Source: Verrucomicrobiota bacterium (GTDB lineage Bacteria; Verrucomicrobiota; Verrucomicrobiia; Opitutales; Opitutaceae). From it: 64,000 bases of DNA. Positions 37,752 through 61,917 of the stretch are shown here, piece by piece. The stretch covers positions 1 through 64,000 of the forward strand of contig JAUWBF010000004.1 in assembly GCA_030601755.1 (NCBI GenBank), in the 5' to 3' direction. Below the pieces are notes generated by a model. It ran no database searches and was not told the DNA's origin. It saw only the letters and a program-made list of their open reading frames with translations. The first letter of the stretch is position 1. Every line of letters begins with the position of its first letter. The translations under genes were made by a program, and so were the position numbers.

Positions 37752-39836
37752 ATGCAACTCTCCACCCGCTTACTCTTCGCATTCGTTTCCACCGGCGGAC
37801 TCCTCTCCGCCCAATCCACCGAAACCGCCGCGCCTTACGAGGCGCCGGCCCAAACGCTCGAGCCCGTCGTCGTCTACGGACGCTCGCTCGATCTCATCGG
37901 CGAGGCCTCCGCGGCTTCCGACGGCTTCGTCGGCAACACCGAGCTGGCCGCGCGCCCTTGGTTGCGTCGCGGCGAACTCCTCGAGGTCGTGCCCGGCGTC
38001 GTCATCACGCAGCACTCCGGCAGCGGCAAGGCCAACCAGTATTTCCTGCGCGGCTTCAATCTCGACCACGGCACCGACTTCGCGGTCACCGCCGACGGCA
38101 TGCCCATCAACCTGCGCACCCACGGCCACGGCCAGGGCTACACCGACCTCAATTTTATCATCCCCGAGCTCGTCGAAGGCATCGCGTATCAAAAAGGTCC
38201 CTACCACGCCGCCAACGGCGACTTCGCAACCGCCGGCGCCGCGCAGTTCACCTTCGTCGACTCGCTGCCCGCCGGCCTGCTCAAGGTCGAATACGGCGAG
38301 GACAACCACGCCCGCCTCGTCGCCGCCGACTCGCTCGCCGCGTCCTCCGGCGGCGTCACCACCGTGGCATTGGAGGCCTCCTACTACGACGGCCCCTGGG
38401 TCAACCCCGAGAACGGCCGCCGCCTCAACGGCTTCGCCCGCCACGTCTGGGACTCCGGCGACGCCCGCCACGCCGTCACCGCCCTCGCCTACCACGGCGA
38501 CTGGGACTCCACCGACCAGGTGCCGCTGCGCGCCATCGCCTCCGGCCTCATCGACCGCTTCGGCGCCATCGACCCCAGCGACGGCGGCGACAGCGACCGC
38601 GCCAGCCTCTCCTACGACGCCGGGTGGACCGCGCCCGACGCCCGCACCGCGCTCAACCTCCACGCGATCTACTACCGCATGGATCTGTATTCAAACTTCA
38701 CCTACTTCCTCGACGACCCCGTCGACGGCGACCAGTTCAACCAGCGCGACGAACGCGGCGTCTTCGGCGGCTCCCTCGCCCGCACCTGGGACTCCGAACT
38801 CGGCGGTCGCCCGCTCGAGACCACCGTCGGCCTCCAGGCCCGCCACGACGTCATCGACGTCGGCCTGCACCGCACCGCCAACCGCGCCCGCCGCTCCACC
38901 GTGCGCACCGACCGCGTCAACGAAAGCAGCGTCGGCCTCCACGCCGAGTCCACCCTGCGCGTGAACGACTGGCTGCGCGTGCAGCCCGGCGCGCGGCTCG
39001 ACGCCTACGCCTTCGACGTCGACAGCGACCTCGCCGCCAACTCCGGTCGCGAAACCGACGCCCTCCTCAGCCCCAAGCTCAACATCGTCCTCGGCCCCTG
39101 GGCCAGGACCGAATTCTACCTGAGCGCCGGGCAGGGTTTTCATAGCAACGACGCCCGCGGCACCACCATCACCGTCGATCCCGCCGACGGCGTCACCCCC
39201 GTCGCCAGGGTCGACCCGCTCGCCCGCGCGCGTGGCGTCGAGGTCGGCGTGCGCACCTCGGCCATTCCCGGCCTCGTCAGCACGCTCAGCGTCTGGGCGC
39301 TCGAGCTCGACTCCGAGCTGCTCTTCGTCGGCGACAGCGGCGCCACCGAGGCCAACGACAAGACCCGCCGCCACGGCGTCGAGTGGGCCAACTTTTACCA
39401 TGCCAACGACTGGCTCGCCTTCGACGCCGACGTCTCCCTCACCCACGCCCGCTACGTCGACGACGCCGGCGGCGCGCCCAACATCGGTCGCCGCATCCCC
39501 GGCTCCATCGACACCGTGCTCACCGGCGGCGTCATCGTCGACCTGCCCGGCGGCTGGTTCGGCAGCCTGCGCGGCCGCTACTTCGGTCCCCAGCCGCTCA
39601 TCGAGGACAATTCCGTCGAGGGCAAGTCGTCGCTCACCTTCAACGCCATGGTCGGCTGGAAAAACCGCGACTGGGAAGTCAGCCTCTCGGTGCTCAACCT
39701 CCTTGATCGCGACAACAACGACATCGTCTACTACTACGAGTCGCGGCTCCCCGGCGAAGGCGCGCCCGTGGCCGACCTGCACCTGCACCCCGCCGAGCCG
39801 CGCACCTTTCGCCTCGCGGTGACGCGACGCTTCTGA
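37752..39836 (+). CDS. TonB-dependent outer-membrane receptor
   Basis: A 694-residue receptor. A signal peptide (to about LLSAQS) is followed by a plug domain with LEPVVVYGRSLDLIGEASAA as TonB-box region and LLEVVPGVVITQHSGSGKAN / YFLRGFNLDHGTDFAVTADG as plug core. The 22-strand barrel ends in FRLAVTRRF. The plug matches the HupE-linked receptor group, so the ligand is probably a metal chelate. No cobalamin riboswitch is recognisable in the 151-bp upstream gap. Confidence 0.93.
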   Translation: MQLSTRLLFAFVSTGGLLSAQSTETAAPYEAPAQTLEPVVVYGRSLDLIGEASAASDGFVGNTELAARPWLRRGELLEVVPGVVITQHSGSGKANQYFLRGFNLDHGTDFAVTADGMPINLRTHGHGQGYTDLNFIIPELVEGIAYQKGPYHAANGDFATAGAAQFTFVDSLPAGLLKVEYGEDNHARLVAADSLAASSGGVTTVALEASYYDGPWVNPENGRRLNGFARHVWDSGDARHAVTALAYHGDWDSTDQVPLRAIASGLIDRFGAIDPSDGGDSDRASLSYDAGWTAPDARTALNLHAIYYRMDLYSNFTYFLDDPVDGDQFNQRDERGVFGGSLARTWDSELGGRPLETTVGLQARHDVIDVGLHRTANRARRSTVRTDRVNESSVGLHAESTLRVNDWLRVQPGARLDAYAFDVDSDLAANSGRETDALLSPKLNIVLGPWARTEFYLSAGQGFHSNDARGTTITVDPADGVTPVARVDPLARARGVEVGVRTSAIPGLVSTLSVWALELDSELLFVGDSGATEANDKTRRHGVEWANFYHANDWLAFDADVSLTHARYVDDAGGAPNIGRRIPGSIDTVLTGGVIVDLPGGWFGSLRGRYFGPQPLIEDNSVEGKSSLTFNAMVGWKNRDWEVSLSVLNLLDRDNNDIVYYYESRLPGEGAPVADLHLHPAEPRTFRLAVTRRF

Positions 39837-40799: not shown

Positions 40800-41846
40800 C
40801 TACCTCCACCTCACCGTGGCCCCGTCCCTCCATGTGCCCGCGATCAGCGACACTTCCGGCGTTGTTGGCAATCCCGCGTGATTGAGATAGAGTTCGCGAG
40901 CCAGCAGGTTGATGGTTCCGCGTCCCACCTCGTGCGTGCGCGCATCCATACCCGCGTGGCCGGTCAAGTGGCGCACCGGCACGGCGACGACCCCCGCTTC
41001 CCCCGGCACCCGGACTCCGATCTCCCGCAGCCAGCCCATGACGGCGGAATCCGTGGTCATCACGCACTCCGGTCGATAGCGGCGGAACCAGCGCACAAAA
41101 TTGTCGCGCGAAGGCAGCACCTCCCAACCGGACACCAACGGGACCCTCATCTCGCGCGGCTGTTGCTCCCTCCATGCGAGGTAGCGGCCCGAAATGGTGT
41201 AACCGACGTTTGCGTCGAGCGCATGAGAAAACGCGAATCCGATTCGCCGGTAATCTCGCTTCTGCAACTCGGTCAGACAGGCGTTCATGCCCTCCATGTA
41301 ATCCGTCGAGGTGCGATGCACCGGCAGGGTCGCCCGCGCGTGGAATCCAGCCGCAACCACCGTGAAATGCCGCCAGTCGCAGTCCGGATAATCTCGCTCC
41401 AAGCCTCCGCCAGGGAAGAGCACGACACCGCGAATGCCCCTTGCGCGCAGGATTCTCGTCAACTGGCCTCCAGTGGGTGGATGCCCGCCATGCACCGGAA
41501 ACTCCTCGACCAAAAACCCAAGTTCATCCGCGCGCTCCACCAACCCCGCGTGCAAGTCGGAGTAGAACTCGTGCGGTTCCTTCCATGATCGGATGGGCTC
41601 GTCGAATTTTGTCAGAACCGCGATTACCTCCCGGGTTCGCTTGCGACGGGAAGCGACCAACGCCGCCACCAAGGGATTCGGCCTGTAGCCGGCAGTCTTC
41701 GCCAAAGCACGTATTTTCTCCCTCAACTCGGCGCTCACCTCCGAACTCCCGCGCAAGGCGAGCGACACGGACATGACGCTGCACCCGGCCATCCGGGCCA
41801 CGTCTTTCATCGTAACCATTTTCGATTCGCTCCGCGGCTCTTTCAT
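40800..41846 (-). CDS. LacI-family transcriptional regulator
   Basis: A 348-residue repressor. HTH TMKDVARMAGCSVMSVSLAL and the hinge region RPNPLVAALVASRRK are followed by a periplasmic-binding-protein-like sensor domain (LRARGIRGVVLFPGGGLERD). Start chosen at MKEPRSE; the frame is open 13 codons upstream. It is divergent from the first glycan gene, and an identical palindrome lies before both glycan promoters. Confidence 0.92.
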   Translation of the reverse strand: MKEPRSESKMVTMKDVARMAGCSVMSVSLALRGSSEVSAELREKIRALAKTAGYRPNPLVAALVASRRKRTREVIAVLTKFDEPIRSWKEPHEFYSDLHAGLVERADELGFLVEEFPVHGGHPPTGGQLTRILRARGIRGVVLFPGGGLERDYPDCDWRHFTVVAAGFHARATLPVHRTSTDYMEGMNACLTELQKRDYRRIGFAFSHALDANVGYTISGRYLAWREQQPREMRVPLVSGWEVLPSRDNFVRWFRRYRPECVMTTDSAVMGWLREIGVRVPGEAGVVAVPVRHLTGHAGMDARTHEVGRGTINLLARELYLNHAGLPTTPEVSLIAGTWRDGATVRWR

Positions 41847-41890: not shown

Positions 41891-41904
41891 CTTTATCATT
41901 AAAG
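41891..41904. promoter_or_regulatory. LacI-type operator 1
   Basis: CTTTATCATTAAAG, with arms CTTTA/TAAAG. An identical 14-mer lies at 45774-45787, and both are followed after 30-40 bases by CGACGTAG or CGGACGTAG. It lies 44 bp before the LacI start and 49 bp before the fusion-gene start, so it can serve both directions. Confidence 0.75.
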
Positions 41905-42045
41905 CTTCGCGGCCTTCGCCAACCGCCATCCGTCGGACGTAGGGACGTTGCTTATGCCCCACCCCATTATTCCACCCGCCCTCCGCCTCCCGCTCCTGCT
42001 CGCGGGACTGGCGTTCACCGATCATCAGGCCTCCGCCACCACACT

Positions 42046-43251
42046 CACCAATCCCTCGCTGTTCGCCCCGAATTATTCAAGCAACGCCAAGGTCACCCAG
42101 TCGGCGGTCGGCGCGACCTCGGCCGCCACCCTCGACGCACTGACCGAATTCTGGGTCGTGCACGATTTCACCGGATTCGCAGACGGATCCAATGACCTCG
42201 CCTTCAGCTCCGGAGATATGCCCGGCATCCGGTTCGATTTCAGCGGAGGCATCCATCCGACCACCGGAAATGAGCTGACCAACACCACCTTCACGACCTC
42301 GGACGCGAGCGCCATTCGCATCCAGTCAAACACGACGACGGCCACGACCATCAGCGGCCTGATCGATTTCACCGGAGCCCAGGTAAACGCCGCCGCCTTC
42401 ACCCTGGCGGGCAATCGCTTCGACCGTGTCGCGACCATCACCGTCTCCTTTCTCTCCAGGGACTCCGCCAATCCGACCGCGCTGTCCACCCAGACCTACG
42501 TCGGCACGGGTTCGCCCTCGACCAACGGCCTCTACTTCGGCTATGCGGCGGACCCCGGACGGGGTATCGGCGGCATCCTTATCGAGATCGAACTCAACTC
42601 CGGTTCCACCACCTCCATCTTCGGCCTCGACGACGTGGGCTTCTCACTAACCGATCCCCTTCTGTTCGAACCGGAGTATTCCACCAATCCCAAAATCACC
42701 TGGTCCGCCGCAACGGCGACTGCGGCCCCGGCCATCGACGCCCTCGACGGGTTTCGGGTCGTGCGCGATTTCACCGGATTCGCAGACGGATCCAACGACC
42801 TCTCCTTCAGCTCCAAGGATATGCCCGGCATCCGGTTCGAATTCAGCGGAGGCATCCATCCGACCACCGGAAATGAGCTGACCAACACCACCTTCACGAC
42901 CTCGGGCGCGAGCGCCATTCGTATCCAGTCAAACACGACGACGGCCACGACCATCAGCGGTCTGATCGATTTCACCGGAGCCCCGGTAAACGCCGCCGCC
43001 TTCACCCTTGCGGGCAATCGTTTCGGCCGCGTGGCGACCATCAAAGTCACCTTCCGCTCCGAGGACTCGGCCAATCCGACCGTCCTCTCCACCCAGACCT
43101 ACAACGGCACGGGCTCGACCTCGACCAACGGCCTCTACTTCGGCTATGCGGCGGCCCCCGGACGGGGCATCGGCGGCATCCTTATCGAGATCGAACTCAA
43201 CTCCGGTTCCACCACCTCCATCTTCGGCCTCGACGACATGGGCTTCTCGCC
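42046..43251 (+). repeat. Two tandem 603-bp repeats inside the fusion gene
   Basis: Repeat 1 (about 42046-42648) and repeat 2 (about 42649-43251) share long identical runs, for example from 42164 and 42767 (period 603 bp, 201 codons). Each encodes one domain (LF.P.YS.N.K, FTGFADGSNDL, SGGIHPTTGNELTNTTFTTS, FGLDD.GFS). The sharpest similarity is in the middle, suggesting a recent tandem duplication. Confidence 0.85.
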
Positions 43252-43941
43252 CATGACCGCCCATCGCGTGCCTGTCACCGCCCGCTGGCGGGATGACGGG
43301 GCCTGGGCCGATTCGCCTTCCGTGATCACCAATCACAGCGACGACGGCGAGGCCGGCGCCCGCGTGGTGAGCCAGGGCTTCGCCCAACTGTTTCTCTCCC
43401 TGCCCGCGCTGGAAATTGGCGCGGTTTATCGCGTGCGCCTCGACGCCGAGCTGTCCGGCCAGATCGAGACCGTCTCCGTGCGTGTCCGCAAGCGCGCCCA
43501 ACCCTACACGCTGTTCGGCTCCCGGGATTTTGTGAACGAGGACAACCAACTCGCGTCCGAACTCCAGTTGCGGACCCCCGCCTCGACGCAGGCCGATGAG
43601 TTTGGGCTCTATCTGGTAGTCACCGGGGCGGGCGTCCTCGACATCGCCCGGGCCACCCTCGAACGCCTGCCCGGCTTCGACATCCCCGAGGACCCGGTCG
43701 GGCCCCGCGGCCAGTTGCTGGCCAATCCCGGCTTCGCCTTGCTCGACGCCGGCTGGGCGCTCCAAAACGCCCATGTCGGGACCACTCCGTCCTCCGGCAA
43801 CCACCTCTTGCTCGAGCCGCAGGCAGGCAGTCGCGCCGTCGCCCTCCAACTCGAACCGGTGACGCTCCGCATCGGGCAAAGCTACGAAATCGAAGTGGTC
43901 GGCCAGAACCTCGCCGGGCTGCAAACACGGCTGCGCGGCGC

Positions 43942-43950
43942 GGGGGGGGG
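43942..43950 (+). other. G9 homopolymer at the frameshift
   Basis: Nine consecutive G residues. Upstream homology is in the frame of 41954, and downstream homology (from ACG at 43951) is shifted. The intact paralogue carries ten non-repetitive bases at this point, so a G10 state would restore the frame. Confidence 0.8.
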
Positions 43951-45773
43951 ACGATATACAGCTTCACGCTGGACGCCGGGCAGGACGGTCGCTGGACCAC
44001 ACGGTTCTCGCTCACTCCGCCCGACGCCGGGGTCCTCGAATTGAGCCGCTCCGCCGTCCTCGACATCTTCGCCACGTCCGGTTCGCCCGTCCTTGAACGC
44101 GTCGGCCTGCTGGAAGCTCCGGCGCATTTCCCACCCGACCTCCCCGTCCGGCTTCCCGAGGCTGCGGTGAGCTTTGCGGCGGCAGGGCTCCGGACACCCC
44201 GTGTCGTGAGCGGCACCCCGCTCACGCTGACAGTGCGGACCGACGGGGTGGATGCCGGGAGCCGCCTGCTGGTAAACATCCGCGACTGGGATCGCACCCT
44301 CGTCCGCCAGATCGATCGGACAGTCGGCACACTGCCCGACGGCACCTCCGGATTCGTCGCCGCCGGGGTGCAGCTCCCTCCCGGCTGGTTTGACACCGAG
44401 GTCGGCCTGCCCGATCACGGCGATACCCACGTCCATCTCATACCGGGAGAAATCGCGGTGCTGCCGCCGGTGGACGCGCCCGAGCCCGACGACGACGCCG
44501 AAGCCTGGGTGCTCGGACATCACCTCCAATACTGGCGGTCCGCGGGCCCCCATGAGCCGCGCGACTACAGCCTGGCTCCCGACGCGACGGAGACGCTCGC
44601 CGCCGCTCGCTCTCTCGGCCTGCAATCCACGCGTTTTCATCCGCCCATGACGACGAAGTGGTGGCACGTGGAGCCCGTGCGAGGAGAATGGAAGTTCTCC
44701 GACGAACTCATCGAAGCCCCACTCGACGCCGACATCAGCGTGCTCGGCACGTTGGACGGCACCCCCCGCTTCGCCAGCTCCGCCCCTCCGGCAAAATTGG
44801 CCGCGACCAAAGGCTGGCCGCTGAACTGGGCCGTGTATCCCGCCAAAAACCTCGCCGACTGGCGGACCTACGTGCGCACCACCGTCACCCGCTATCGCGA
44901 CAGCGTGCGTGCCTGGGAAATCTGGAACGAACCCGACAGCCGCATGTTTCTCGGCCTGCCCGACGGCACCGACACGCCCGAGCGCGTTTACACCTCTCTG
45001 GTGAGCGCCGCCGCCGAGGAGATTCGCGCGATCGACCCCGCCATCATTATCGTGGCCGGATCCGTCACCGCCGGAGGCCAGGAGTTTCTGGTGCGGGCCA
45101 TCCAGGACGAGGGGCTGCTGGACCATTGCGATGTCATCTCCTTCCACGGTTACGGTCGGGTCCGCGCCTCCGACCGCGGGGCCGACGCCTTCGCCAATCT
45201 CGTCGGCGCCATTCACCAAGCCGCCGGCCCCGGCCGCGAGGTCGTGATCTGGGACACCGAGGCGGCGATCGGCACGCTGCCCGAAGGCCGGGCCGGGCTC
45301 CGCATCGCGGAAACCGAGCTCAAGGGCATCCTCGCCCGTCGCGCCGCCGGCATCAACCGCCTCTATTTCTACAACGGCTTTCGGAGGGACGACCCCCTGC
45401 ACGGCGACTTCCGCGTGCTCTGGGGTTACGACGACCGCCGGCCTCTCGCCATCCAGCCCCTGCTCGCGGCCTCCCAGTGGCTGCTCGCCGGCTCCGAGTT
45501 CGAAACCGCGCTCGTTGATGAGCCCGAAGGCGCGCACGTTTACGTTTTTCGGCACGCCGATGGCCGGCGCATCGCCGCCGGCTGGACCTCCGCCCCGTCC
45601 GGTTCGACTCAATATCAGCAAACCGGCCCCTTCGTTTCCGGTCGTATTTTCACCCAGACCGGCGCGGACACCGGCCGCTACGAGGGCGGGGTGCTGCCCC
45701 TGACCACTTCCGTCCGATACTTCGACCAAACCCCCTGAACCCCGCTCGGCAGTTCTCCGGGCCGTCAGACCTG

Positions 45774-45787
45774 CTTTATCATTAAAG
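45774..45787. promoter_or_regulatory. LacI-type operator 2
   Basis: CTTTATCATTAAAG, identical to the site at 41891-41904, 43 bp before the PEP-CTERM gene. It suggests that the LacI regulator at 40800-41846 also controls the PEP-CTERM, pyruvyl transferase and hydrolase genes. Confidence 0.75.
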
Positions 45788-45830: not shown

Positions 45831-46625
45831 ATGCCGCTCCCTCACCTTATGAAAACCTCAACCTCCTCCTCCCGATACATCCGCCTTCCGCTCCTGCTTG
45901 CGGGACTGGCGTTCGCCGGCCAGCAAACGTCCGCCCTCACCCTGACTGATCCCTCACTGTTCGCCCCGAATTATTCGAGCAACGCCAAGGTCACCCAATC
46001 GGCGGTCGGCGCGACCTCGGCCGCCACCCTCGACGCACTGACCGGATTCTGGGTCGTGCGGGATTTCACCGGCTTCACCAGCGGTTCGAACTCGATCGCT
46101 TTTACCTCCACTGATCTGCCCGGCATCCAGTTCAGCTTCAGCGGGTCGATCCAGCTCGACAACACCGGGAACGAAATCACCAACGCCACTTTCGCGACAT
46201 CCGGGTCGAGCGCCATTCGGATCCAGGCCAACACGACAAATGCGGCGACGTTGACCGGTCTGATCGACTTCACGGGCGCCGGTGTGAACGCCGTGGCGTT
46301 CACCCTGGCCGGAAACCGCTTTGCCCGCGTGTCGGACATCACGGTGAATTTCCTCTCCGAAACGTCCACCGTCCTCTCGACCCAGACCTACACCGGCACC
46401 GGGTCGAGCTCCGCCATCGGCCTCTATTTTGGTTACGAGGCGCCTTCGAGTCAGACGATCGGAAGCATCTCGATCTCGGTGACGCTCGACAGCGGCTCGG
46501 AGACCGTGGTCCTGGGCCTCGACGATGTGGGTTTCTTCTCGACCATCCCCGAACCCTCCTCCGCCGCCATGCTGGTTGGCTCCGCGGGACTGTTGCTGGC
46601 GAGCATCCGTCGCCCACGGCGCTGA
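45831..46625 (+). CDS. PEP-CTERM sorting domain protein
   Basis: A 264-residue secreted protein: signal peptide (LPLLLAGLAFAGQQTSA), a beta-sandwich domain paralogous to the repeats at 42046-43251, and the C-terminal sorting signal IPEPSSAAMLVGSAG with a hydrophobic helix and the basic end RRPRR. The tail is recognised by exosortase and usually goes with exopolysaccharide loci. Start at ATG 45831; the ATG at 45849 (MKTSTSSS) would also leave the signal peptide intact. The next gene follows after 46 bases. Confidence 0.92.
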   Translation: MPLPHLMKTSTSSSRYIRLPLLLAGLAFAGQQTSALTLTDPSLFAPNYSSNAKVTQSAVGATSAATLDALTGFWVVRDFTGFTSGSNSIAFTSTDLPGIQFSFSGSIQLDNTGNEITNATFATSGSSAIRIQANTTNAATLTGLIDFTGAGVNAVAFTLAGNRFARVSDITVNFLSETSTVLSTQTYTGTGSSSAIGLYFGYEAPSSQTIGSISISVTLDSGSETVVLGLDDVGFFSTIPEPSSAAMLVGSAGLLLASIRRPRR

Positions 46626-46671
46626 CCAAACCGCGCCCCGACGCTCTCCCCTCAAGCCTGCTCATCCCCCC

Positions 46672-47937
46672 ATGTCTTTGACCGCACAAAAACCGGTCGG
46701 CGGCCTTGCCGTCGATAAATGTCCGCTCCCTCGCGTCCCGCATTTACTCGTCCGCTCTTCCTGGCAGACGGTCAACATCGGCGATATCAGCCACACGCCG
46801 GGCCTGCTGCGGCTGCTGGAGACCCATCTCCCCGCAGCCCGGATCACGTTGCTCGCCCGAAATCTCGGACATGGCGTGAGCGCGGTGCTCCGCCACCACT
46901 TCCCCCGGGTCGAAATCATCGAGGAGCCTGAGACACCGGACGGACTTCCCGCCACGGCGGCCGGACAGCATGCCTGGGCCGCGGCCGACATGTTCATCCA
47001 CGGCTCCGGTCCCTATGTCGTGGCGCGCGCCGAACTCTCGGCCTGGGCCGCGACCGGGAGACCCTACGGCATCTATGGCGTCTCTCTTGAGGAGTTTGAC
47101 CCGGATTTGATCGCGCTCCTATCCGGGGCCGACTTCGTCTTTTGCCGAGACACCACCACGTTGCGGGCCGTCCGCGCCGCCGGTGTGCGCATGAACCCCT
47201 CCTCCTGCCTCGGCTTTGCTCCCGACGCCGCCTTCGCCGCCACCGACGCGGACGAACGGGCCGCCGACGCCTTTCTCGCCGCGCACAGACTCGAGCCCGG
47301 CAAGTTTATCTGCGTCGTCCCGAGGCTTCGCTACACCCCTTATCACCGGATTCATGATCGCCCCCCCACGCCTCGCGAGATGGAGCGCGCGGAGATCAGC
47401 GAAACCTACCGCGAACGTGACCACGACACGCTCCGCACCATCGTTTCCCGCTGGGTCCGCGACACCGGGCTCAAGGTGCTCGCCTGTCCTGAAATGACCT
47501 ATCAGGTCGATCTTGCCCGGACAGAGCTCGTGGAACCGCTTGCGCCGGCGATCCGATCACATGTCGTGTGGCGCGACACCTACTGGCGCAACGACGAGGC
47601 CGCCGGCATTTACGCCCGCGCTTTCGCCGTTGTCAGCGTCGAGATGCACTCTCCCATTCTCGCCTTCGCAGCGGGCACCCCGGCCATTCATCTGCGCCAA
47701 CCCAGTGACACCGTAAAGGGCCAGATGTGGAGGGACATCGGCCTGCCCGAGTGGATATTCGAGATCGACGACACCGACGGTCACGACATCGCTGATCTCC
47801 TGCTGCAAATGCACCACCACCCAGACCGAATCGCGGCCAAGCTGTCCTCCGCCCGAGCCCACGTAGCCCGGCTGCAGGCCCAATCGATGGAAATCGTAAG
47901 ACATTATTGCGAAGCCTTCTCCTCGGCTGCCCGCTAA
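46672..47937 (+). CDS. Polysaccharide pyruvyl transferase family protein
   Basis: A 421-residue protein of the PS_pyruv_trans fold: NIGDISHTPGLLRLLETHLP near the N-terminus, GPYVVARAELSAW, PYGIYGVSLEEFDPD and FCRDTTTLRAVRAAGV in the middle, and VVSVEMHSPILAFAAGTPAI near the C-terminus. Such enzymes add pyruvate ketals to surface polysaccharide, although many relatives have no tested activity. Between the PEP-CTERM protein and the intact hydrolase, probably in one transcript. Confidence 0.87.
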   Translation: MSLTAQKPVGGLAVDKCPLPRVPHLLVRSSWQTVNIGDISHTPGLLRLLETHLPAARITLLARNLGHGVSAVLRHHFPRVEIIEEPETPDGLPATAAGQHAWAAADMFIHGSGPYVVARAELSAWAATGRPYGIYGVSLEEFDPDLIALLSGADFVFCRDTTTLRAVRAAGVRMNPSSCLGFAPDAAFAATDADERAADAFLAAHRLEPGKFICVVPRLRYTPYHRIHDRPPTPREMERAEISETYRERDHDTLRTIVSRWVRDTGLKVLACPEMTYQVDLARTELVEPLAPAIRSHVVWRDTYWRNDEAAGIYARAFAVVSVEMHSPILAFAAGTPAIHLRQPSDTVKGQMWRDIGLPEWIFEIDDTDGHDIADLLLQMHHHPDRIAAKLSSARAHVARLQAQSMEIVRHYCEAFSSAAR

Positions 47938-47977
47938 ACTCATCCCCTTGCCCCCTGTGACCTCACTCCTTTCAGCC

Positions 47978-50524
47978 ATGCCGGCCCGCCCCCGCCGGCT
48001 TTCGCCGCTTCTGTTTATTTTCGTCTGTTTTGCGGCCCCGTGCCTTGCCCAAGTCGCCCACCGCATCCCGTTCGCGACACCATGGCAGGACAACGGAGCG
48101 TGGGCCAACTCGCCCGCCAACATTTCCCGCCACACCGCCGAGGCCGGTGCCCGAGTGGAAAGCCAAGGCTTCGCCCAGATCTTCCTCCCCATGCCCGCGC
48201 TCGTCGAAGGCGCTATCTATCGCGTGCGCGTCACCGCCGATCTCGCCGGCCAGATCGAGACCGTTTCCGTGCGCGTGCGCAAACGGGTGCTGCCCTACAC
48301 CTTGTTTGGCTCCCGCGATTACGTCACCCAGGACAATCGCATGGCGGCCGAACTCCAGTTTCGGACTCCCGCCTCGACGCAGTCCGGCGAGTTTGGGCTC
48401 TTCCTGATCGTCACCGGCACGGGCACGCTCGACGTCACCCGCACCACACTCGAGCGTCTGCCCGAATTTGACATCCCTGCGGACCCAGTCGGGCCACGCG
48501 GCCAGTTGCTCGCCAATCCGGATTTTGCGCTGCTCGACGCTGGCTGGGTTCTCGCGCAGGCTCGCATCGAATCCGATCACCAGTCCGGCGGGCGGCTAGT
48601 GCTCTCCCCGGAGCCGGGTAGCCCCGCCACCGCCGTTCAGATTGAGCCGGTTGCCTTGCGCCTCGGCCAAAGCTATCGCTTGGAAGTATCCGGCGAAAAC
48701 CTTGCCGGTCTGCATGCGTCGCTGCGCGGCGCGAAACGCGAGACGATCCGCCGCTTCACGCTCGACGCCGGCGAAAACGGATTCTGGAGCACTCGGTTTT
48801 CCCTCACCCCGCCCGAATCGGGGCTTCTCGAGTTGAATCGTCCCGCCGTCCTGGGAATCACCTTCGCATCCGGCTCCGCCGTGCTGAAGCATGTCCGTCT
48901 GGTTGAGTCGCCGGACCATCAAGCGCGGTCCACCGTCGTGCCGCCCGCCGCCAACGTTAGCTTCGAAGTCGCAGGCCGGCGGGTGCCCCGCGTCGTGGGC
49001 GGCGATCCGCTTTCCCTTGCGGTGCGCACGTCCGGGATCGATGTCGGCACGCCTCTTTCCGTCCGCATTCGCGACTGGGACGGCACCGTCGTGCGGCAGG
49101 TTGACCGACCGGTCGGCCGACTTCCCGACGGCACGACGGGATTTGTCGTCACCGGCGTGCAACTGCCCCCCGGCTGGTTCGACACCGAAGTGGGGCCGCT
49201 CGACCGCAACTCACCCGCCGTGGCGACCGTGCCCGGCGAGATCGCCGTGCTACCGCCCATGACGGATGCGACTCCGTCCGACGCTTCCTCTTGGGTGCTC
49301 GGTCATCATCTCCAATATTGGCGAACCGAAGGATCGCAGGAACCCCGCCGCTACTTACTCGCCCCCGATTCGGACTCCACCTTGGAGGACGCGCGACGCT
49401 TGGGCGTGCAATCCGTGCGTTTCCACCCGCCCATGACGACAAAATGGTGGCAGGTAGAGCCCGTTCGGGGCCAATGGCGATTCACTGACGAACTCATCGA
49501 CGCGCCCCTGGCCCACGGGATCAGCGTGCTCGGCATGCTGGACGGCACCCCCAGATTCGCCAGCTCGGCGCCCGCGCTCCAACTGGAAGCAAGCAAGGGC
49601 TGGCCGCGCAACTGGGCCGTGTATCCCGCCAAAAAACTCGACGACTGGCGCGCCTACGTGCGCACCACCGTCACCCGTTATCGCGATCGCGTGCGCGTTT
49701 GGGAAATCTGGAACGAACCCGACAGCCGCATGTTCCTCGGCATGCCCGACGGCGCAGGGGAGCACGACACGCCCGAGCGCGTTTACACCTCGCTGGTGCG
49801 CGCGGCGGCGGCGGAGATTCGCGCGATCGATCCCGGCATCAAAATCGTGGCGGGCTCGGTCACCGGAGGCGGTCTTAAGTTTCTCGTCCGGGCGATCCGG
49901 GACGAGGGACTGATGGAACATTGCGACGTGATTTCCTTCCACGGCTATGGTCGCGTGCGCGCCTCCGACCGCGGGGCCGGCGCCTTCGCCGACATCGTTG
50001 GAGCCATCAACCGGGCCGCCGGGAGAAAGGTCGAGATATGGGACACCGAGGCCGCGCTCGGCACCATGCCCGAAGGCCGCGCCGGACTCCGTATCGCGGA
50101 GACCGAGCTCAAGGGCATCCTCGCCCGGCGCGCCGCCGGCATCAACCGCCTCTATTTCTACAACGGCTTCCGGAGGGACGACCCCCTGCACGGCGACTTC
50201 CGCGTGCTCTGGGGCTACGACGACCGTCGGCCCCTCGCCATCCAGCCCCTGCTCGCGGCCTCCCAGTGGCTGCTCGCCGGCACCGAGTTCGAAACCGCAC
50301 TCGTCGACGAACCCGAAGGCGCCCACCTTTACGTTTTTCGCCGCGCCGACGGCCGGCGCGTCGCCGCCGGCTGGACCTCGTCGCCATCCGGGGCGACCCG
50401 GCACCAGGCCGGGTCGTCGTTCCGCTCCGGCCGCATCTTCACCCAAACCGGGGCCGACGCCGGACGGTATGAAGACGGCGTGCTGCCGCTCGTCTCCTCG
50501 GTCCGCTACTTCGTCTTGCCCTGA
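47978..50524 (+). CDS. Secreted clan GH-A glycoside hydrolase (intact paralogue)
   Basis: An 848-residue enzyme. A signal peptide (LLFIFVCFAAPCLAQ) is followed by about 430 residues of beta-rich domains (PFATPWQDNGAWANSPANIS, LRLGQSYRLEVSGENLAGL) and a TIM barrel with E580 in WEIWNEPDSRMF as acid and E691 in EIWDTEAALG as nucleophile, 111 residues apart. The pattern fits GH39- or GH5-like members of clan GH-A; no exact family is certain. The C-terminal third is almost identical in DNA to the frameshifted copy (for example 50165-50275 against 45380-45490). A frame upstream at TTG 47948 is open. Confidence 0.88.
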   Translation: MPARPRRLSPLLFIFVCFAAPCLAQVAHRIPFATPWQDNGAWANSPANISRHTAEAGARVESQGFAQIFLPMPALVEGAIYRVRVTADLAGQIETVSVRVRKRVLPYTLFGSRDYVTQDNRMAAELQFRTPASTQSGEFGLFLIVTGTGTLDVTRTTLERLPEFDIPADPVGPRGQLLANPDFALLDAGWVLAQARIESDHQSGGRLVLSPEPGSPATAVQIEPVALRLGQSYRLEVSGENLAGLHASLRGAKRETIRRFTLDAGENGFWSTRFSLTPPESGLLELNRPAVLGITFASGSAVLKHVRLVESPDHQARSTVVPPAANVSFEVAGRRVPRVVGGDPLSLAVRTSGIDVGTPLSVRIRDWDGTVVRQVDRPVGRLPDGTTGFVVTGVQLPPGWFDTEVGPLDRNSPAVATVPGEIAVLPPMTDATPSDASSWVLGHHLQYWRTEGSQEPRRYLLAPDSDSTLEDARRLGVQSVRFHPPMTTKWWQVEPVRGQWRFTDELIDAPLAHGISVLGMLDGTPRFASSAPALQLEASKGWPRNWAVYPAKKLDDWRAYVRTTVTRYRDRVRVWEIWNEPDSRMFLGMPDGAGEHDTPERVYTSLVRAAAAEIRAIDPGIKIVAGSVTGGGLKFLVRAIRDEGLMEHCDVISFHGYGRVRASDRGAGAFADIVGAINRAAGRKVEIWDTEAALGTMPEGRAGLRIAETELKGILARRAAGINRLYFYNGFRRDDPLHGDFRVLWGYDDRRPLAIQPLLAASQWLLAGTEFETALVDEPEGAHLYVFRRADGRRVAAGWTSSPSGATRHQAGSSFRSGRIFTQTGADAGRYEDGVLPLVSSVRYFVLP

Positions 50525-50566
50525 CCGCTCTCCGTCTGCCCCCCATTCCCTCCACCCCAATTGCCC

Positions 50567-51241
50567 ATGAACCCCCGGCCCTACTCTCTCCCTCGCCACG
50601 GCTTCACTTTGGTCGAACTGCTCACGGTCATCGCCATCGTGGGCATCCTGGCGTCGATCATCATCGTCTCGATTGGCAAGGTTCGCGCCTCGGCCCGTGA
50701 CACCCGTTGCCTGAGCAACCTTCGGCAAATCGGCATACTGTTTACCCTGTATCGGGCGGACAACGACAACCGCCTGCCGGTGGACATCCAAGTGGATCAA
50801 GCCACCAACGCGACCAGGACTTGGGACAACTATCTGAAGGATTACCTACAGAACAGCTCTACCGGAGCGCGTGCAGCAGACGTCTTCGGGTGTCCGTCGG
50901 TTGTGCCGGATGCCAACACGCTCTCAGTCCAGTCGTCCTATGGCATCAACTACCATCTGGGATCCAACCAGACTCCGAGACTCAAGATCCCCTTTACATC
51001 CATCGCGCGGCCAAGCGAAACGTTCCTCGTCACCGACTCCGATGATCGCGCGTTCAGGCGCGATTCGCAAAGTCTGATGCAAAACGGAAACAGTCGCTAC
51101 GATATCCCTCCCGTCGAGCGCCATTCACGTCGCTTCAACATGCTCTATGCCGACGGTTCGGTGCGCATCCTCAATTTCAACGCCATGCCGTGGGGTGCCA
51201 CCCATTCCGGAACCGAACCGCCTTGGGGGCCCGGCTCCTGA
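50567..51241 (+). CDS. Pseudopilin-like H-X9-DG protein
   Basis: A 224-residue protein with a type II secretion/type IV pilin N-terminus: a prepilin cleavage site before FTLVELLTVIAIVGILASII, then a soluble domain, and near the C-terminus HSRRFNMLYADG, which is His, nine residues, Asp-Gly. This H-X9-DG motif marks the DUF1559-like surface proteins frequent in Planctomycetota and Verrucomicrobiota. Located directly after the hydrolase; it might be its export or adhesion partner. Confidence 0.9.
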   Translation: MNPRPYSLPRHGFTLVELLTVIAIVGILASIIIVSIGKVRASARDTRCLSNLRQIGILFTLYRADNDNRLPVDIQVDQATNATRTWDNYLKDYLQNSSTGARAADVFGCPSVVPDANTLSVQSSYGINYHLGSNQTPRLKIPFTSIARPSETFLVTDSDDRAFRRDSQSLMQNGNSRYDIPPVERHSRRFNMLYADGSVRILNFNAMPWGATHSGTEPPWGPGS

Positions 51242-51256
51242 ACGCCACGGCTTTAT

Positions 51257-52045
51257 TTGCCCGCCGTTTTTCCATTGATCCTCATTCGTCGTCGCCACGT
51301 CCCTTCGCCCTCCTCTTCCCCCGCGCCCTTGCCCGAGGTCGCCTCGCGTCACCTCGCCGCATCACGCTTCGCCTTGCTCAAACAAGGCCCATGGCAGGTG
51401 TTTTTCCACTACGGCCAGATCAACCGCTCCCACTCGCAGGCCGAGGCGCTCAACTGGTCGGCCACCCTCGACGGCATCGACGTCGCGCACGACCCCGGCA
51501 CCGTCGGCTACGGCTCCCCGCTCTCCAACGGCTACTACCGTCGCGGCCTCTGCCACAACGTCCCGCTCATCGACGGCGAAGGCCAAATGCCATGGAAACC
51601 CGGCGCGCTCACGACCTTCGACGCCGAACGCGCCGTCATGACCGGCGATCAGCCCGACTACCGCCCCGGCGCCTCCGCGCGGCGCACCCTGCGCATCGAG
51701 GGCGACGACCTCATCGATGAGGTCGTCGTCACCTGCACAGATCCGCACCGCGCGGACGCCCGCCTTGGTCTCGCGCTCCATCTGCAAGGCCGGGCCATCC
51801 TGCCCGCCGCGTTCACGCCCACCGCCGACTTCGCCGTCAGCCGCACCGAACCCTTCCGCCATTGGCTCGACGTGCGCTCGGCGACTTTCGAAAACCACGC
51901 GGAGATCGAGGTCGAACTCTCGGGAGGACCCCGCCTGCTCGTGCGGTTCTCCACTCCCGGACGCTTCATCCTCCACCAAGGCTCCTCGCCCGACTTCCCG
52001 CCCGCCCGCCGCGGCGTCCGCACCGGCGTCGGCCCGATGGCGTGA
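51257..52045 (+). pseudogene. Heparinase II/III-like C-terminal fragment
   Basis: About 230 residues resemble the C-terminal beta-sandwich of heparinase II/III family lyases: KQGPWQVFFHYGQINRSHSQ, TLDGIDVAHDPGTVGYGSPL and YRRGLCHNVPLI. The N-terminal (alpha/alpha) toroid with the catalytic Tyr/His is missing, the only starts are TTG or internal, and the end is abrupt. It is probably a remnant of a polysaccharide lyase gene. Confidence 0.7.
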
Positions 52046-52806: not shown

Positions 52807-53610
52807 CTACTCAAGTTCACCCGCAGCCGGCTGCGTGTCCTTCAGCGCCACGCCACTGACGCCGAGGCGCGCGGACTCGATGAGCAGGTGCGCGAGCTTT
52901 CGCGCCGCCAACGCCGGCGGCAGACCCTCGGGGCGGATGTTCGACACGCAGTTGCGATCAGCATCGGTGCAGGCGGTGTTCGGCCGGTGCGTCAGGTAGG
53001 CGCCGAGACTGTCCGGCATGCCGAGTCCCGGCCGCTCGCCGAGCAACATCAGCGCGTGCCGCGCCCCCAGCAGCTCGCCGACCTCGTCCTGCAACTTAAC
53101 GCGACCAAATGGCGCGAGCAGGATCGGAAACAGCGTCCAGCCGGCCGCGGCCAGCAGCCCGGCGAGCAACGTCACCGTCTCCACCGCGTGACGCTCCGCG
53201 GCCTGCGCCGCGAGCCCGTCGGACACGATGATGACCAGATCGCGCCGCCCCCACTGCGCCGCCTTCGCGGACAGCTCCGCGCGAGACTCGTCGGACAACC
53301 GCCGCCCCAGATCGGGCCGCACCAGATAGGTCTTCTTGTCGCCGACTGCCGTCGTGATCGCCGCGGTCTCAGAGCCTCCCGCGGCCAGCCGCCCCGCCAA
53401 GCCCTCGGCATCAAACGGCGCCATCACCGCGTCCCGCGCCCGCGCATGCGACAGACGAAAATCCAGCACCGTATCCGTCCGTTGACTACCGCCCGAGCGC
53501 CCCAGCGCGATCCGCGCCGAGGTGTAGCGGCGCAGCGTCGCCCAAGGATCACGGCCGGCGGGCGCTTCGGACGCCAACGGCGTCAGAGGTTGGTCACTTG
53601 AATCGTCCAT
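52807..53610 (-). CDS. eutC: Ethanolamine ammonia-lyase small subunit
   Basis: A 267-residue EutC protein: RDPWATLRRYTSARIALGRS, LDFRLSHARARDAV and GERPGLGMPDSLGAYLTHRP with the cobalamin-contacting Cys-rich end TDADRNCVSNIRPEGL. It forms with EutB the adenosylcobalamin-dependent enzyme that turns ethanolamine into acetaldehyde and ammonia. Start at MDDSSDQ inside the last 17 bases of eutB, so the subunits are translated together. No microcompartment genes lie nearby. Confidence 0.96.
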   Translation of the reverse strand: MDDSSDQPLTPLASEAPAGRDPWATLRRYTSARIALGRSGGSQRTDTVLDFRLSHARARDAVMAPFDAEGLAGRLAAGGSETAAITTAVGDKKTYLVRPDLGRRLSDESRAELSAKAAQWGRRDLVIIVSDGLAAQAAERHAVETVTLLAGLLAAAGWTLFPILLAPFGRVKLQDEVGELLGARHALMLLGERPGLGMPDSLGAYLTHRPNTACTDADRNCVSNIRPEGLPPALAARKLAHLLIESARLGVSGVALKDTQPAAGELE

Positions 53611-54976
53611 CGCTGAGCAGGGCATGTTTTACTCCGACCGGCAGCAGGCGGCGGCCTTCGGACGCGATGCGCATTTTTTCGAGCCACACCTCGAACTCGG
53701 GGGCGGGTTTCAGGCCGAGGACCTGGCGCAGGTAGTGGCTGTCGTGGAAGCTGGTGCTCTGGTAGCCGAGCATGATGTCGTCGGTGCCGGGGATACCCAT
53801 GATGAAGTTGCAGCCGGCGACACCGAGCAGCGTGAGCAGGTTGTCCATGTCGTCCTGGTCGGCCTCGGCGTGGTTGGTGTAGCACACGTCGACGCCCATC
53901 GGCAGGCCGAGGAGCTTGCCGCAGCAGTGGTCCTCGAGGCCGGCGCGGATGATCTGCTTGCCGTCATAAAGATACTCGGGGCCGATGAAGCCGACCACGG
54001 TGTTGACGAGCAGCGGCTTGAACGGACGCGCGACCGCGTAGGCGCGCACCTCGCAGGTCTGCTGGTCGAGACCGTGGTGCGCGCCGGCCGAGAGGCACGA
54101 GCCCTGGCCGGTCTCGAAATACATGACGTTGTCACCGACGGTGCCGCGCTTGAGCGACAACGCGGCCGCGCGGGCCACGGCGAGCAGATCGAGCTTGATG
54201 CCGAAGCTTTTGTTGGCGGCCTCGGTGCCGGCGATGGATTGAAAGACGAGATCGACCGGCGCGCCCCGCGCCATGCAATCGATCGCGGTGGTGACGTGCG
54301 CGAGGATGCAGGACTGCGTGGGGATCTCGTAACGGCGGACGAGCTCGTCGATCAACCGCAGCAACGTCTCCATGGCGGCGGCGCTGTCGGTGGCGGGGTT
54401 GATGCCGATGACCGCGTCGCCGCAACCGTAGAGCAACCCGTCGAGGATCGACGCGGCGATGCCCTGCGGATCGTCCGTCGGATGGTTCGGCTGCAGACGG
54501 ACGGAGAGGCGCCCCGGCAAACCGATGGTCGAGCGAAAGGCGGTGACGACGCGGCACTTCTTGCCCACGAGCACGAGGTCCTGGTTGCTCATGAGCTTCG
54601 ACACCGCGGCGACCATCTCGGACGTGAGTCCGGGCGAGAGCGCGGTCAGCACCTCGGCGTCGGTCTCGTAGCGCAGCAGCCAGTCGCGGAACTGCCCGAC
54701 CGTCAGACCGGCGACGGGCGCGAACGCGGCGCGGTCGTGCGTGTCGATGATCAGCCGCGTGATCTCGTCCTGCTCGTAAGGAATCAGCAGGTCCTCGAGG
54801 AAGCGCGTGAGCGGCACGTCGGCGAGGCAGAGCTGGGCGGCGACGCGTTCCTCGGCGGAAGCCGCGGCGACACCGGCGAGCACGTCGCCGGAGCGATGCG
54901 GCGTGGCCTTGGCCATGAGCTCCTTGAGCGTGGCGAAGGAGTGCCGGGTCTTGCCGATGGTCGTCGCGAAGCTCAT
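53594..54976 (-). CDS. eutB: Ethanolamine ammonia-lyase large subunit
   Basis: A 460-residue EutB protein with the TIM-barrel core; landmarks are LGLPGRLSVRLQPNHPTDDP-type IGLPGRLSVRLQPNHPTDDP, YGCGDAVIGINPATDS, FQSIAGTEAANKSFGIKLDL, MYFETGQGSCLSAGAHHGLD and CYTNHAEADQDDMDN. It is the first gene of the eut pair and probably the start of a transcript preceded by a large inverted repeat (54989-55116), so its promoter is unclear. No EutA reactivase or acetaldehyde dehydrogenase lies in the window. Confidence 0.97.
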   Translation of the reverse strand: MSFATTIGKTRHSFATLKELMAKATPHRSGDVLAGVAAASAEERVAAQLCLADVPLTRFLEDLLIPYEQDEITRLIIDTHDRAAFAPVAGLTVGQFRDWLLRYETDAEVLTALSPGLTSEMVAAVSKLMSNQDLVLVGKKCRVVTAFRSTIGLPGRLSVRLQPNHPTDDPQGIAASILDGLLYGCGDAVIGINPATDSAAAMETLLRLIDELVRRYEIPTQSCILAHVTTAIDCMARGAPVDLVFQSIAGTEAANKSFGIKLDLLAVARAAALSLKRGTVGDNVMYFETGQGSCLSAGAHHGLDQQTCEVRAYAVARPFKPLLVNTVVGFIGPEYLYDGKQIIRAGLEDHCCGKLLGLPMGVDVCYTNHAEADQDDMDNLLTLLGVAGCNFIMGIPGTDDIMLGYQSTSFHDSHYLRQVLGLKPAPEFEVWLEKMRIASEGRRLLPVGVKHALLSDGRFK

Positions 54977-54988
54977 GTGGACGGAGTC

Positions 54989-55116
54989 TTAACGCAAAGG
55001 CGCGAAGACGCAAAGATCTGAAGACCGTAGCGCAGGCTTCCAGCCTGCCGTCGAAATAGGAATGCAGGCTGGAAGCCTGCGCTACTCAACTTTGCGTCCT
55101 GGCGTCTTTGCGTTAA
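54989..55116. repeat. Nested REP-like inverted repeats
   Basis: Outer arms: 54989-55015 against 55090-55116 (TTAACGCAAAG-type ends). Inner arms: 55027-55048 and 55064-55085, a perfect 22-base complement, each containing a smaller GCAGGCT/AGCCTGC palindrome. The element lies between the kinase gene and eutB and could be a mobile palindromic unit or a transcript terminator. Confidence 0.8.
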
Positions 55117-55152
55117 AAATATGCGCATCGTCGAGGTGTTGTTGATCAGACC

Positions 55153-56181
55153 TCAGGCGAATTTTGCCAAGTAGTCGTCGGCGAGATTCAGCGTGTCGTC
55201 GGTGAATTGCGGGCCCATGGCCTGGGCCTGCGCGGTGTCGGCGTGCGAGCCGACCCATGCGACGAGCAGCAGGCGGCGCAGCATGATGAAGGTGGGGATC
55301 TCCGCGATCTCCTGCTTGGAGAGTTTGCGCAGGGCGGTGTAGCCGCGCAGCCACGCGTCGATGTAGGCCTGCAGGTCGGGATGCGTCTCGATGAAGCTGA
55401 GCGCGGCGGCGAGGTCGTAGATGAACCACGAGTGTCCGCAGTCGTCGAAGTCGATGACGGCAACCTGCCCCTCGTGCACGAGCAGGTTGGCGGCACGCAG
55501 GTCGGCGTGGATGAGGCCGAAGCGTTCGCGTCCGTAGCCGATGGCGTCGACGCGGCGGCGGATCACGGGGAGGAGCTTGGCGAGCTTGCGCTGTTTGGCG
55601 GGCGTCATGCCGAGGCCTTCCTGCCAGCGTCCCCAGTGGGGCTTGTCGCCGATCATGGTCTCGAAGTCCCAGCGTTCACGCAGCACGGGGTGCGGTGGCT
55701 TCCACGCGGCGGCGTGCAAGTGGAGACGCGCGGTCACGCCACCAAGCAGCTCGAAGGCCGCGAGGCGGTTGGTGTCGTCGGGTTCGGTGCCTTCGACAAA
55801 CGTCATGAGCACGCAGTGGCGCGGCTCGGGCACGGCGGGGTGCCAGACGTATTGAATGGCCTCGCCGTCGCGACCGGGCACGGGCTCGGCAATCACGATG
55901 GACGTGTCGCGCTTGAGCGCGTGCAACCAAGAGAGCTCGGTGAGGATGTTGATGCGCGGGTGGTAGCCGGGACGGTTGATGCGCAGCACGCGGCGCGGAC
56001 CCGAGGGCGGCGTGATCAGGTAGGTCGCGTTCTCCGAGTAGTTGAGCAGACGCACACCGGAGTCCGGCGACAGGTCGAAGAGCGGCAACGCCTGGCGGAC
56101 GAGTTTCTCGATGCGCGCCAGCTGCTGCTTGGTGGAGAGGGCGGCGAACGCGGCGGGGGTAATGGCGGCGACGGCGGACAT
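55153..56181 (-). CDS. APH-fold phosphotransferase (amino-alcohol kinase-like)
   Basis: A 342-residue aminoglycoside-phosphotransferase-fold kinase. Catalytic H225-A-D227 in GLIHADLRAANLLV with N232, and the metal D244 in VIDFDDCGHS; the nucleotide loop region is RVLRINRPGYHP. Relatives phosphorylate choline, ethanolamine, homoserine or hydroxylysine. The adjacent class III PLP enzyme resembles the ethanolamine-phosphate/hydroxylysine-phosphate phospho-lyases, which need such a kinase, so an amino-alcohol substrate is inferred. It lies 9 bases after the aminotransferase-like gene. Confidence 0.85.
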   Translation of the reverse strand: MSAVAAITPAAFAALSTKQQLARIEKLVRQALPLFDLSPDSGVRLLNYSENATYLITPPSGPRRVLRINRPGYHPRINILTELSWLHALKRDTSIVIAEPVPGRDGEAIQYVWHPAVPEPRHCVLMTFVEGTEPDDTNRLAAFELLGGVTARLHLHAAAWKPPHPVLRERWDFETMIGDKPHWGRWQEGLGMTPAKQRKLAKLLPVIRRRVDAIGYGRERFGLIHADLRAANLLVHEGQVAVIDFDDCGHSWFIYDLAAALSFIETHPDLQAYIDAWLRGYTALRKLSKQEIAEIPTFIMLRRLLLVAWVGSHADTAQAQAMGPQFTDDTLNLADDYLAKFA

Positions 56182-56190
56182 GACTCTGGC

Positions 56191-57465
56191 TTAAAAACTG
56201 GAGGCCGCGGCGGCGATGCCGTCGGCGGTGCGTTCGAGGATTTCGTCGCACTCGGCGGCGGTGAGCAGGAGGCCGGGCTTGAACTGCAGCACGCGCGGAT
56301 CGAGCTGCGAGAAGATCGCCCAGATGCCCTTGGCGTAGAGTTCACGCATGACGTGCTTGGCGCCCTCGGGGTGACCGTTGAACTCGAGCCCGAAGATCAC
56401 GCCGCGCTGGCGGATGCCGGTGAAGAAGCTGTGCTTCGTAATGATTTCTTCGAGACCGGCACGGAGCTTCACCGCGATACGGTCGACATTGGTGATGGTC
56501 TCGGGGCGCAGGGTGATTTCGAGCGTCTTGAGCGCGGCCACGCAACCGAGCTCGGAGCCACCGAAGGTCGAGATGTGGCCCCAGCCGTCTTCGTTGAGCC
56601 AGCCGCCGCCGGCCTCGTTGGTGATGACCGCGCCGATCGGATAGAGTCCCCCGGAGAGACCCTTTCCGGTGACGATGATATCGGGCTGCACGCCGTAGCT
56701 GGTGATGCCCCAGAGGTTGCCGGAGCCACAGCGCATGAGACCGGTCTGGACTTCGTCGGCGACGTAGAGGGAACCGTATTTCTCGCAGAGTTTTTTAACA
56801 CCTTGCAGGTAGCCCTCGGCCGGCAACGGAAAGCCGTAGGTCGCGGGGATGGTCTCCATGATGACGCAGGCGGCGTCGCCGGGAGACAGGGCGACCTCGA
56901 GCGCGGCCAGGTCATTGAAGGGGACCTTCACAAACTCATCGGGACGACCACCGCTCATGAACTGGTCGGCGTAGCGACCGTCGGCGGTGCCGAGCGCGAG
57001 ACCGGTGTGGCCGTGGTAGGCGCGGATGACGGAAACGATCTTCTTGCGCTTGGTCGCGTAGCGCGCGCACTTGAGGCCAATGTCGATGGCCTCGCCGCCG
57101 CCACTGGAGAATACCGCGTAGCGCATGTTAGGCGTCGCTGTTTGCACAAGCTTCTTGGCGAGCGCGGCGCGGCCGATGGCGGGGAAGTGATGGTTGCCTA
57201 CATCGAAGTGATCGAGGGCCTCCTTCAGCTCGGCGATGATCTCGGGGTTGCGGTGGCCGAGGTTGTAGGTGCCGCCGTTGAGATGCAGGTCGATCAGGCG
57301 ATGGCCCGACATGTCGTGCAGGAAGTAGCGCTCGCGTTTGCCGATGACGAGCGGCGTGCCTCGCGCGGCCCAGGCGTGGACCTTGTCGGGATTCCAGTAG
57401 GAGGCGCTGTCGGCGAGGACATCGGCCTTTGTTGCGTTAACGAGCGAATCGATGAGGGCGGACAT
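56191..57465 (-). CDS. Class III PLP enzyme (aminotransferase / phospho-lyase)
   Basis: A 424-residue fold-type I enzyme of aminotransferase class III: PLP Lys268 in IIVTGKGLSGG, D237 in VADEVQTG, and SSGGGEAIDIGLKCARYATK. The family includes omega-aminotransferases and the ethanolamine-phosphate phospho-lyases (AGXT2L1 type), which look alike by sequence. The neighbouring APH-fold kinase favours the lyase reading, in which phosphorylated amino-alcohol gives aldehyde, ammonia and phosphate. Start at ATG 57465; the frame is open further up into the next gene. Confidence 0.85.
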   Translation of the reverse strand: MSALIDSLVNATKADVLADSASYWNPDKVHAWAARGTPLVIGKRERYFLHDMSGHRLIDLHLNGGTYNLGHRNPEIIAELKEALDHFDVGNHHFPAIGRAALAKKLVQTATPNMRYAVFSSGGGEAIDIGLKCARYATKRKKIVSVIRAYHGHTGLALGTADGRYADQFMSGGRPDEFVKVPFNDLAALEVALSPGDAACVIMETIPATYGFPLPAEGYLQGVKKLCEKYGSLYVADEVQTGLMRCGSGNLWGITSYGVQPDIIVTGKGLSGGLYPIGAVITNEAGGGWLNEDGWGHISTFGGSELGCVAALKTLEITLRPETITNVDRIAVKLRAGLEEIITKHSFFTGIRQRGVIFGLEFNGHPEGAKHVMRELYAKGIWAIFSQLDPRVLQFKPGLLLTAAECDEILERTADGIAAAASSF

Positions 57466-57497
57466 AACAGTGACGGGGGTTTGAAAAAGGCGCGCGG

Positions 57498-58202: not shown

Positions 58203-58214
58203 GATCGAACGTTC

Positions 58215-58991: not shown

Positions 58992-59019
58992 GTCAGGGTT
59001 TTATGGATACGTTCTCGGC

Positions 59020-59847: not shown

Positions 59848-59856
59848 GGCGGCGGT

Positions 59857-61811: not shown

Positions 61812-61852
61812 TGGGTCCGTTGTGTCGATATGCGGGCGCAGGCAGGCAGTGG

Positions 61853-61883
61853 CCGCGGACCGGGCGCCCGGCACGGTCCGCGG
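61853..61883 (-). terminator. Strong GC hairpin between the binding-protein and ATPase genes
   Basis: CCGCGGACCG (61853-61862) pairs with CGGTCCGCGG (61874-61883) around an 11-base loop. It lies 34 bases after the PotD-like stop and 42 bases before the ATPase start. Without a T-run it is more likely an mRNA stabiliser that keeps the binding-protein message in excess than a full terminator. Confidence 0.6.
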
Positions 61884-61917
61884 ATTGACAAAAGCAGGCG
61901 TGATGCCGGCCGGAGGA

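Follow-up and report, generated by a model that had tools for sequence, protein, structure and literature searches.

The window analysed here, a stretch of 64,000 nucleotides, contains four consecutive genes on the plus strand, which encode a PEP-CTERM protein, a protein of the PF04230 family, a predicted secreted glycoside hydrolase, and an H-X9-DG pseudopilin (Table 1). The initial annotation had described this arrangement, and it is real, with intergenic gaps of 46, 40, and 42 bp. The four genes form one unit. The gene set is not due to chance, because it recurs in relatives and because the adjacency of pilin and PEP-CTERM genes is strongly enriched throughout the genome. The unit is larger than first noted, as it also includes a duplicate on the upstream side (41954-45738) and, downstream, a heparinase fragment. 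The fragment starts 33 bp after the pilin gene, and PF07940 covers residues 30-176 of the 262-aa ORF 51257-52045, which lacks the N-terminal domain; a tblastn search of the window with heparinase relatives yielded no match, and the missing part was therefore not located. Among the genes of the unit, there is no SusC/SusD pair, no TonB receptor or transporter, and no predicted glycosyltransferase or polymerase gene. A TonB receptor is encoded at 37752-39836, beyond lacI and one unrelated gene.

Table 1. Genes and sequence features of the unit, with the evidence for each
Feature	Position	Strand	Basis
LacI-family regulator, divergent	40800-41819	-	PF00356 LacI HTH 50.3 bits, gene model
Candidate LacI operator 1, CTTTATCATTAAAG	41891-41904	.	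Genome-wide site search
Chimeric gene: signal peptide, two PEP-CTERM passengers, N-terminal GH part	41954-44044	+	Alignment, repeats
G9 run, frame shift in upstream GH copy	43942-43950	+	Alignment of the two copies, sequence
Remainder of upstream GH copy, catalytic part	44041-45738	+	75% identity to 47978-50524
Candidate LacI operator 2, identical 14-mer CTTTATCATTAAAG	45774-45787	.	Genome-wide site search
PEP-CTERM sorted protein	45849-46625	+	Signal peptide, C-terminal motif, Pfam
PF04230 (PS_pyruv_trans), Glu/Asp-x-His clade, GT-B fold, no export signal	46672-47937	+	Pfam, fold, alignment
Predicted secreted GH-A-type glycoside hydrolase, GH39-like (weak)	47978-50524	+	Signal peptide, NEP/WDTE motifs
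H-X9-DG (DUF1559-like) pseudopilin	50567-51241	+	N_methyl, literal motif
Heparinase II/III C-terminal domain fragment	51275-52045	+	PF07940 36.2 bits, operon spacing

Organization, regulation, and recurrence of the unit

The PEP-CTERM protein has an N-terminal signal peptide and, at the C-terminus, IPEPSS followed by a hydrophobic helix and the basic tail RRPRR. Its Pfam score of 17.2 bits is slightly below the cut-off of 20.7, and the genome encodes four exosortases. These features are those of known PEP-CTERM/exosortase sorting. What differs is that the individual loci link PEP-CTERM genes to pseudopilins and to enzymes acting on carbohydrates instead of exopolysaccharide biosynthesis genes. 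The pseudopilin carries a prepilin cleavage motif (N_methyl, 29.5 bits, above the cut-off) and near its C-terminus HSRRFNMLYADG, a literal H-X9-DG motif, with a TIGR04294 score of 15.7 bits just below the cut-off of 19. The hydrolase matches GH39 (PF01229) with 15.5 bits and its sister copy with 20.0 bits, both below the cut-off of 26, so that membership in GH39 was not obtained. NEP and WDTE motifs are readable in its sequence, which suggests that it is GH-A-like, an assignment by motif only. The genome contains relatives of this gene, in C131 and C30, with matches to GH10, GH5, or GH39.

The upstream copy begins with the signal peptide and the passenger of the PEP-CTERM protein, the latter doubled with a period of 603 nt. 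The two passenger copies are 69% and 64% identical to the PEP-CTERM protein, and the following part, fused in frame, is 64% identical to the glycoside hydrolase. Missing at the junction are the tail of the PEP-CTERM protein, the PF04230 gene, and the signal peptide of the hydrolase. The chimeric gene, which joined a duplicated passenger to a hydrolase and lost the sorting tail, thus represents domain shuffling beside its parents. Alignment of the two copies revealed that the upstream hydrolase changes frame at a run of nine G. The dN/dS between the copies is 0.29 upstream of the break and 0.23 downstream of it. Therefore, an old pseudogene was ruled out, and the break is a recent mutation, an assembly error, or a phase-variable tract. 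In the last case, phase variation would affect the gene of a predicted secreted enzyme. The locus may be decaying, given the fragmentary heparinase gene and the frameshift in the upstream hydrolase.

Next to the unit lies a divergent lacI gene. The 14-bp sequence CTTTATCATTAAAG occurs twice in the 3.55-Mb genome when up to one mismatch is allowed, at 41891 beside lacI and at 45774 in front of the PEP-CTERM gene. At L068, where a related LacI adjoins another PF04230 locus, the divergent region of that LacI contains CTTTACGATTAAAG. We infer that CTTTATCATTAAAG is a putative operator bound by LacI, and the unit is probably controlled by the adjacent regulator. The proposed link to LacI was thus retained, but not the single operator, because the sequence is present in two copies, one for each duplicated unit. 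Scans for sigma-70 promoters and for terminators gave no more hits than expected by chance.

The genome contains 12 strong relatives of the pilin. Eleven of them have a PEP-CTERM gene no more than 6 kb away (10% expected, binomial P 8e-11), and 8 of the 12 have a LacI gene no more than 10 kb away (9% expected, P 1e-6); these statistics were derived from the coordinates of search matches, and the binomial ignores contig ends. The window unit is one of about ten cassettes of an H-X9-DG pseudopilin and a PEP-CTERM gene in this genome, most of which are also near a LacI gene. Comparison of genomic neighborhoods revealed an ordered gene set in relatives. At L079 and L082, lacI is divergent from heparinase, PF04230, PEP-CTERM, and pilin genes, in this order, and at L082 a second, tail-less PEP-like protein precedes the pilin. 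L080, apparently Geminisphaera colitermitum TAV2, has the same four genes, with no LacI seen within the stretch. L109 (JB024) has lacI divergent from heparinase, PF04230, and PEP-CTERM genes, with no pilin seen. Variant loci with GH3, heparinase, or alginate lyase genes are found at L063 and L065, and PEP-CTERM and pilin genes are absent from the loci of many PF04230 relatives. The initial annotation would fall if the genes did not co-occur in relatives; because the set is kept in relatives, it stands in this respect. A precedent for the PEP-CTERM/pilin/LacI cassette was not found in the open-access full-text literature, and neither pilins nor PEP-CTERM proteins appear in the content of a paper on freshwater Verrucomicrobia.

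The PF04230 protein and its clade

The protein had been annotated as a polysaccharide pyruvyl transferase. The family match was confirmed (48.4 bits versus a cut-off of 25.3), but the residue modelled as a contact of phosphoenolpyruvate (PEP) and a context of assembly genes were not. The AF2 model has a pLDDT of 93 and shows a GT-B fold, with two Rossmann-like domains that together span the entire chain. The best structural matches in the PDB are UDP-GlcNAc 2-epimerases (Z about 24, rmsd 3.7-4.8 over 335-341 residues), and Pvg1 is absent among the 50 structural matches listed. Neither the protein itself nor a profile built from 38 relatives retrieved anything from the PDB by sequence. In a profile-profile alignment, E324-M-H326 falls on the R-M-H of canonical members, and the window protein thus has E-M-H in place of the RxH motif of ketal-pyruvyltransferases. 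Position 324 is Glu in 116 and Asp in 9 of 125 relatives, whereas the canonical members examined mostly have Arg and two have Ser. In Pvg1, R337-L338-H339 have been modelled as PEP contacts, the PEP site being known from a computed model only (PMC6801904). The alignment suggests that the clade has lost the presumed PEP-holding arginine of Pvg1 and has kept the fold and the histidine. N35, D38, R159, E274, E/D324, and K349 are invariant over the 125 sequences and E309 and H326 nearly so; these polar and charged residues look like an active site.

A genome scan retrieved at least 581 relatives, the best 80 of which belong to six phyla, i.e. Verrucomicrobiota, Bacteroidota, Planctomycetota, Acidobacteriota, Lentisphaerota, and KSB1. 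The gene is accessory, because only 19 of 195 genomes drawn from the phylum of the window carry a strong match. Signals were called by pattern rules, not by SignalP. Under a strict rule that allowed any start, 81 of 133 clade members have a Tat signal, compared to 0 of 19 canonical PF04230 proteins of the same class; under a relaxed rule, about 95 of 125 members have a Tat signal and 3 have Sec signals. PEP is not expected in the compartment to which most clade members are exported, and the export and the loss of the arginine agree with each other. Two relatives (L065, L070) have the PF04230 domain fused behind an alginate lyase, and another (L110) behind a BNR sialidase-like domain. The latter (L110:6726-10256) is a planctomycete protein of 1177 aa with a signal-like N-terminus and a further C-terminal region. 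An apparent fusion at L162 was rejected, as the upstream frame is merely open.

The immediate neighbors, tallied around PF04230 relatives alone, include SusD (7 of 56), TonB plug (6), and heparinase (3), and further GH88, GH1, GH3, DUF4838, and 3-keto-disaccharide hydrolase genes. Most neighbors share no family. In several Opitutaceae, a TonB receptor gene precedes the PF04230 gene. The assignable neighbors are mostly GH, PL, SusD, and TonB genes, and sugar transferases account for 2 of 51 downstream genes, so that a context of glycan assembly was not found. FAD_oxidored genes also adjoin several PF04230 relatives, and in the window, a single ORF on the minus strand (11018-14320) joins a FAD_oxidored domain to alpha-L-rhamnosidase domains. 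In the open-access full-text literature, no precedent was found for the clade or for Tat-exported PF04230 proteins, and a search of the open-access literature found no biochemistry of clade members. The clade is widespread and apparently undescribed.

The window copy has no export signal in any reading of its N-terminus, and the clade members at L079, L080, L082, and L109 likewise have none. Its branch is long, and its best identity is 51%. Because of the missing signal and the long branch, it may differ from the exported members; it should be cytosolic, where it presumably acts on imported oligosaccharides.

Proposed function and alternatives

The initial annotation had proposed a system that modifies and displays a surface glycan. 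The modification is unsupported, as the relatives are found among lyases, glycoside hydrolases, SusD, and TonB proteins, are mostly exported, and have lost the PEP arginine. The display part is still plausible, in so far as PEP-CTERM sorting is concerned. The lyase, hydrolase, SusD, and TonB neighbors, the export, and the loss of the arginine point to the breakdown of foreign polysaccharides. We consider it fairly probable that the unit is a LacI-controlled polysaccharide-utilization operon of an Opitutaceae-like verrucomicrobium, which is partly tandem-duplicated and contains a GT-B enzyme that has been repurposed for catabolism.

According to this proposal, LacI would bind CTTTATCATTAAAG and would be released by a sugar derived from the substrate. 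The glycoside hydrolase would be secreted and cut the polymer, and the exosortase-sorted PEP-CTERM protein and the pseudopilin would keep the machinery at the surface or export it there. As a GT-B enzyme for which PEP is no longer the donor, the PF04230 protein would process the glycan or fragments taken up by the cell. In most relatives it would do so as a Tat-exported protein or fused to a lyase or sialidase, and in the window copy and the clade with the heparinase-PF04230-PEP-CTERM order as a signal-less cytosolic protein that acts on oligosaccharides after their import. The recurrent heparinase II/III, the alginate lyase fusion, and GH88 make a substrate with a high content of uronic acid probable. 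Like SusC/SusD polysaccharide utilization loci, the unit has a regulator, a secreted GH or PL, and surface proteins, and its PF04230 relatives adjoin SusD and TonB receptor genes. Unlike them, it lacks SusC/SusD and appears to be under LacI control, and the PEP-CTERM and H-X9-DG proteins would fill the surface role.

We tentatively suggest that the E/D-x-H clade may well constitute a class of carbohydrate-active enzymes that are mostly exported and so far undescribed, in which a PEP-dependent biosynthetic scaffold was turned to polysaccharide breakdown, possibly as a pyruvate-ketal hydrolase. The best guess for the reaction, chemically suggestive but drawn only from family descent and rather improbable, is that a substituent, for example a pyruvate ketal, is removed. 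No pyruvate-ketal hydrolase or ketalase is described in the open-access full-text literature searched. The Bacillus 4,6-pyruvyl-galactose-releasing enzyme (PyrGal-ase) frees the whole PyrGal residue (cited in PMC6801904); it would be an analogue, compared by function alone, if the clade removes pyruvylated residues.

Alternatively, the clade could consist of non-catalytic, lectin-like GT-B proteins that bind glycans or serve as scaffolds, holding the polysaccharide for partner enzymes. The fusions set PF04230 beside catalytic domains, as might be expected for a binding module, and SusD-type binding proteins are among the neighbors, but the active-site-like pattern of invariant residues argues against this alternative, and we regard it as quite improbable. 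A further alternative, also of distinctly low probability, is that the protein is a genuine ketal-pyruvyltransferase in the cytosol. It would then decorate exopolysaccharide of the cell itself, to be displayed by the PEP-CTERM protein and the pseudopilin. The score above the family cut-off, the missing signal peptide of the window copy, and the general co-occurrence of PEP-CTERM systems with exopolysaccharide genes (PMC1569441) are in line with this alternative. The clade shares with Pvg1p, CsaB, and WcfO the Pfam family, the full-length GT-B fold, the N-terminal Asn-Gly region, the histidine of RxH, and a downstream lysine. However, it differs from them by Glu or Asp instead of the RxH arginine in 125 of 125 sequences, by Tat export or fusion to lyase and sialidase domains in most members, and by its location in degradation loci instead of glycan-assembly loci; in addition, the operon itself contains a secreted hydrolase and a heparinase fragment, and no predicted glycosyltransferase or polymerase gene. 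Lastly, the frameshifted hydrolase, the heparinase fragment, and the long branch of the PF04230 copy might suggest a relic that is partly duplicated, is decaying, and no longer serves a coherent function. This alternative is very unlikely in view of four intact, tightly spaced genes, the retained clade-invariant residues, dN/dS values of 0.23-0.29 for the hydrolase copies, and an exact operator-like site that was retained twice.

If a polysaccharide-utilization operon with a catabolic PF04230 enzyme is indeed present, the clade would be a new enzyme class that breaks down substituted acidic polysaccharides. Hundreds of genes that would be annotated automatically as polysaccharide pyruvyl transferase may be misassigned, as the signals point to secreted, catabolic proteins. 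In the LacI/pseudopilin/PEP-CTERM cassettes, Verrucomicrobiota would possess a logic of surface display, different from that of SusCD, with which to forage for polysaccharides.

Two further observations were made elsewhere in the window. A 1485-aa ORF on the plus strand (25293-29750) has a strong coding signal and no Pfam match. On the minus strand (52807-63096), EutC and EutB are encoded next to a class-III aminotransferase and an isochorismatase-like gene, which form an ethanolamine-type catabolic cluster.
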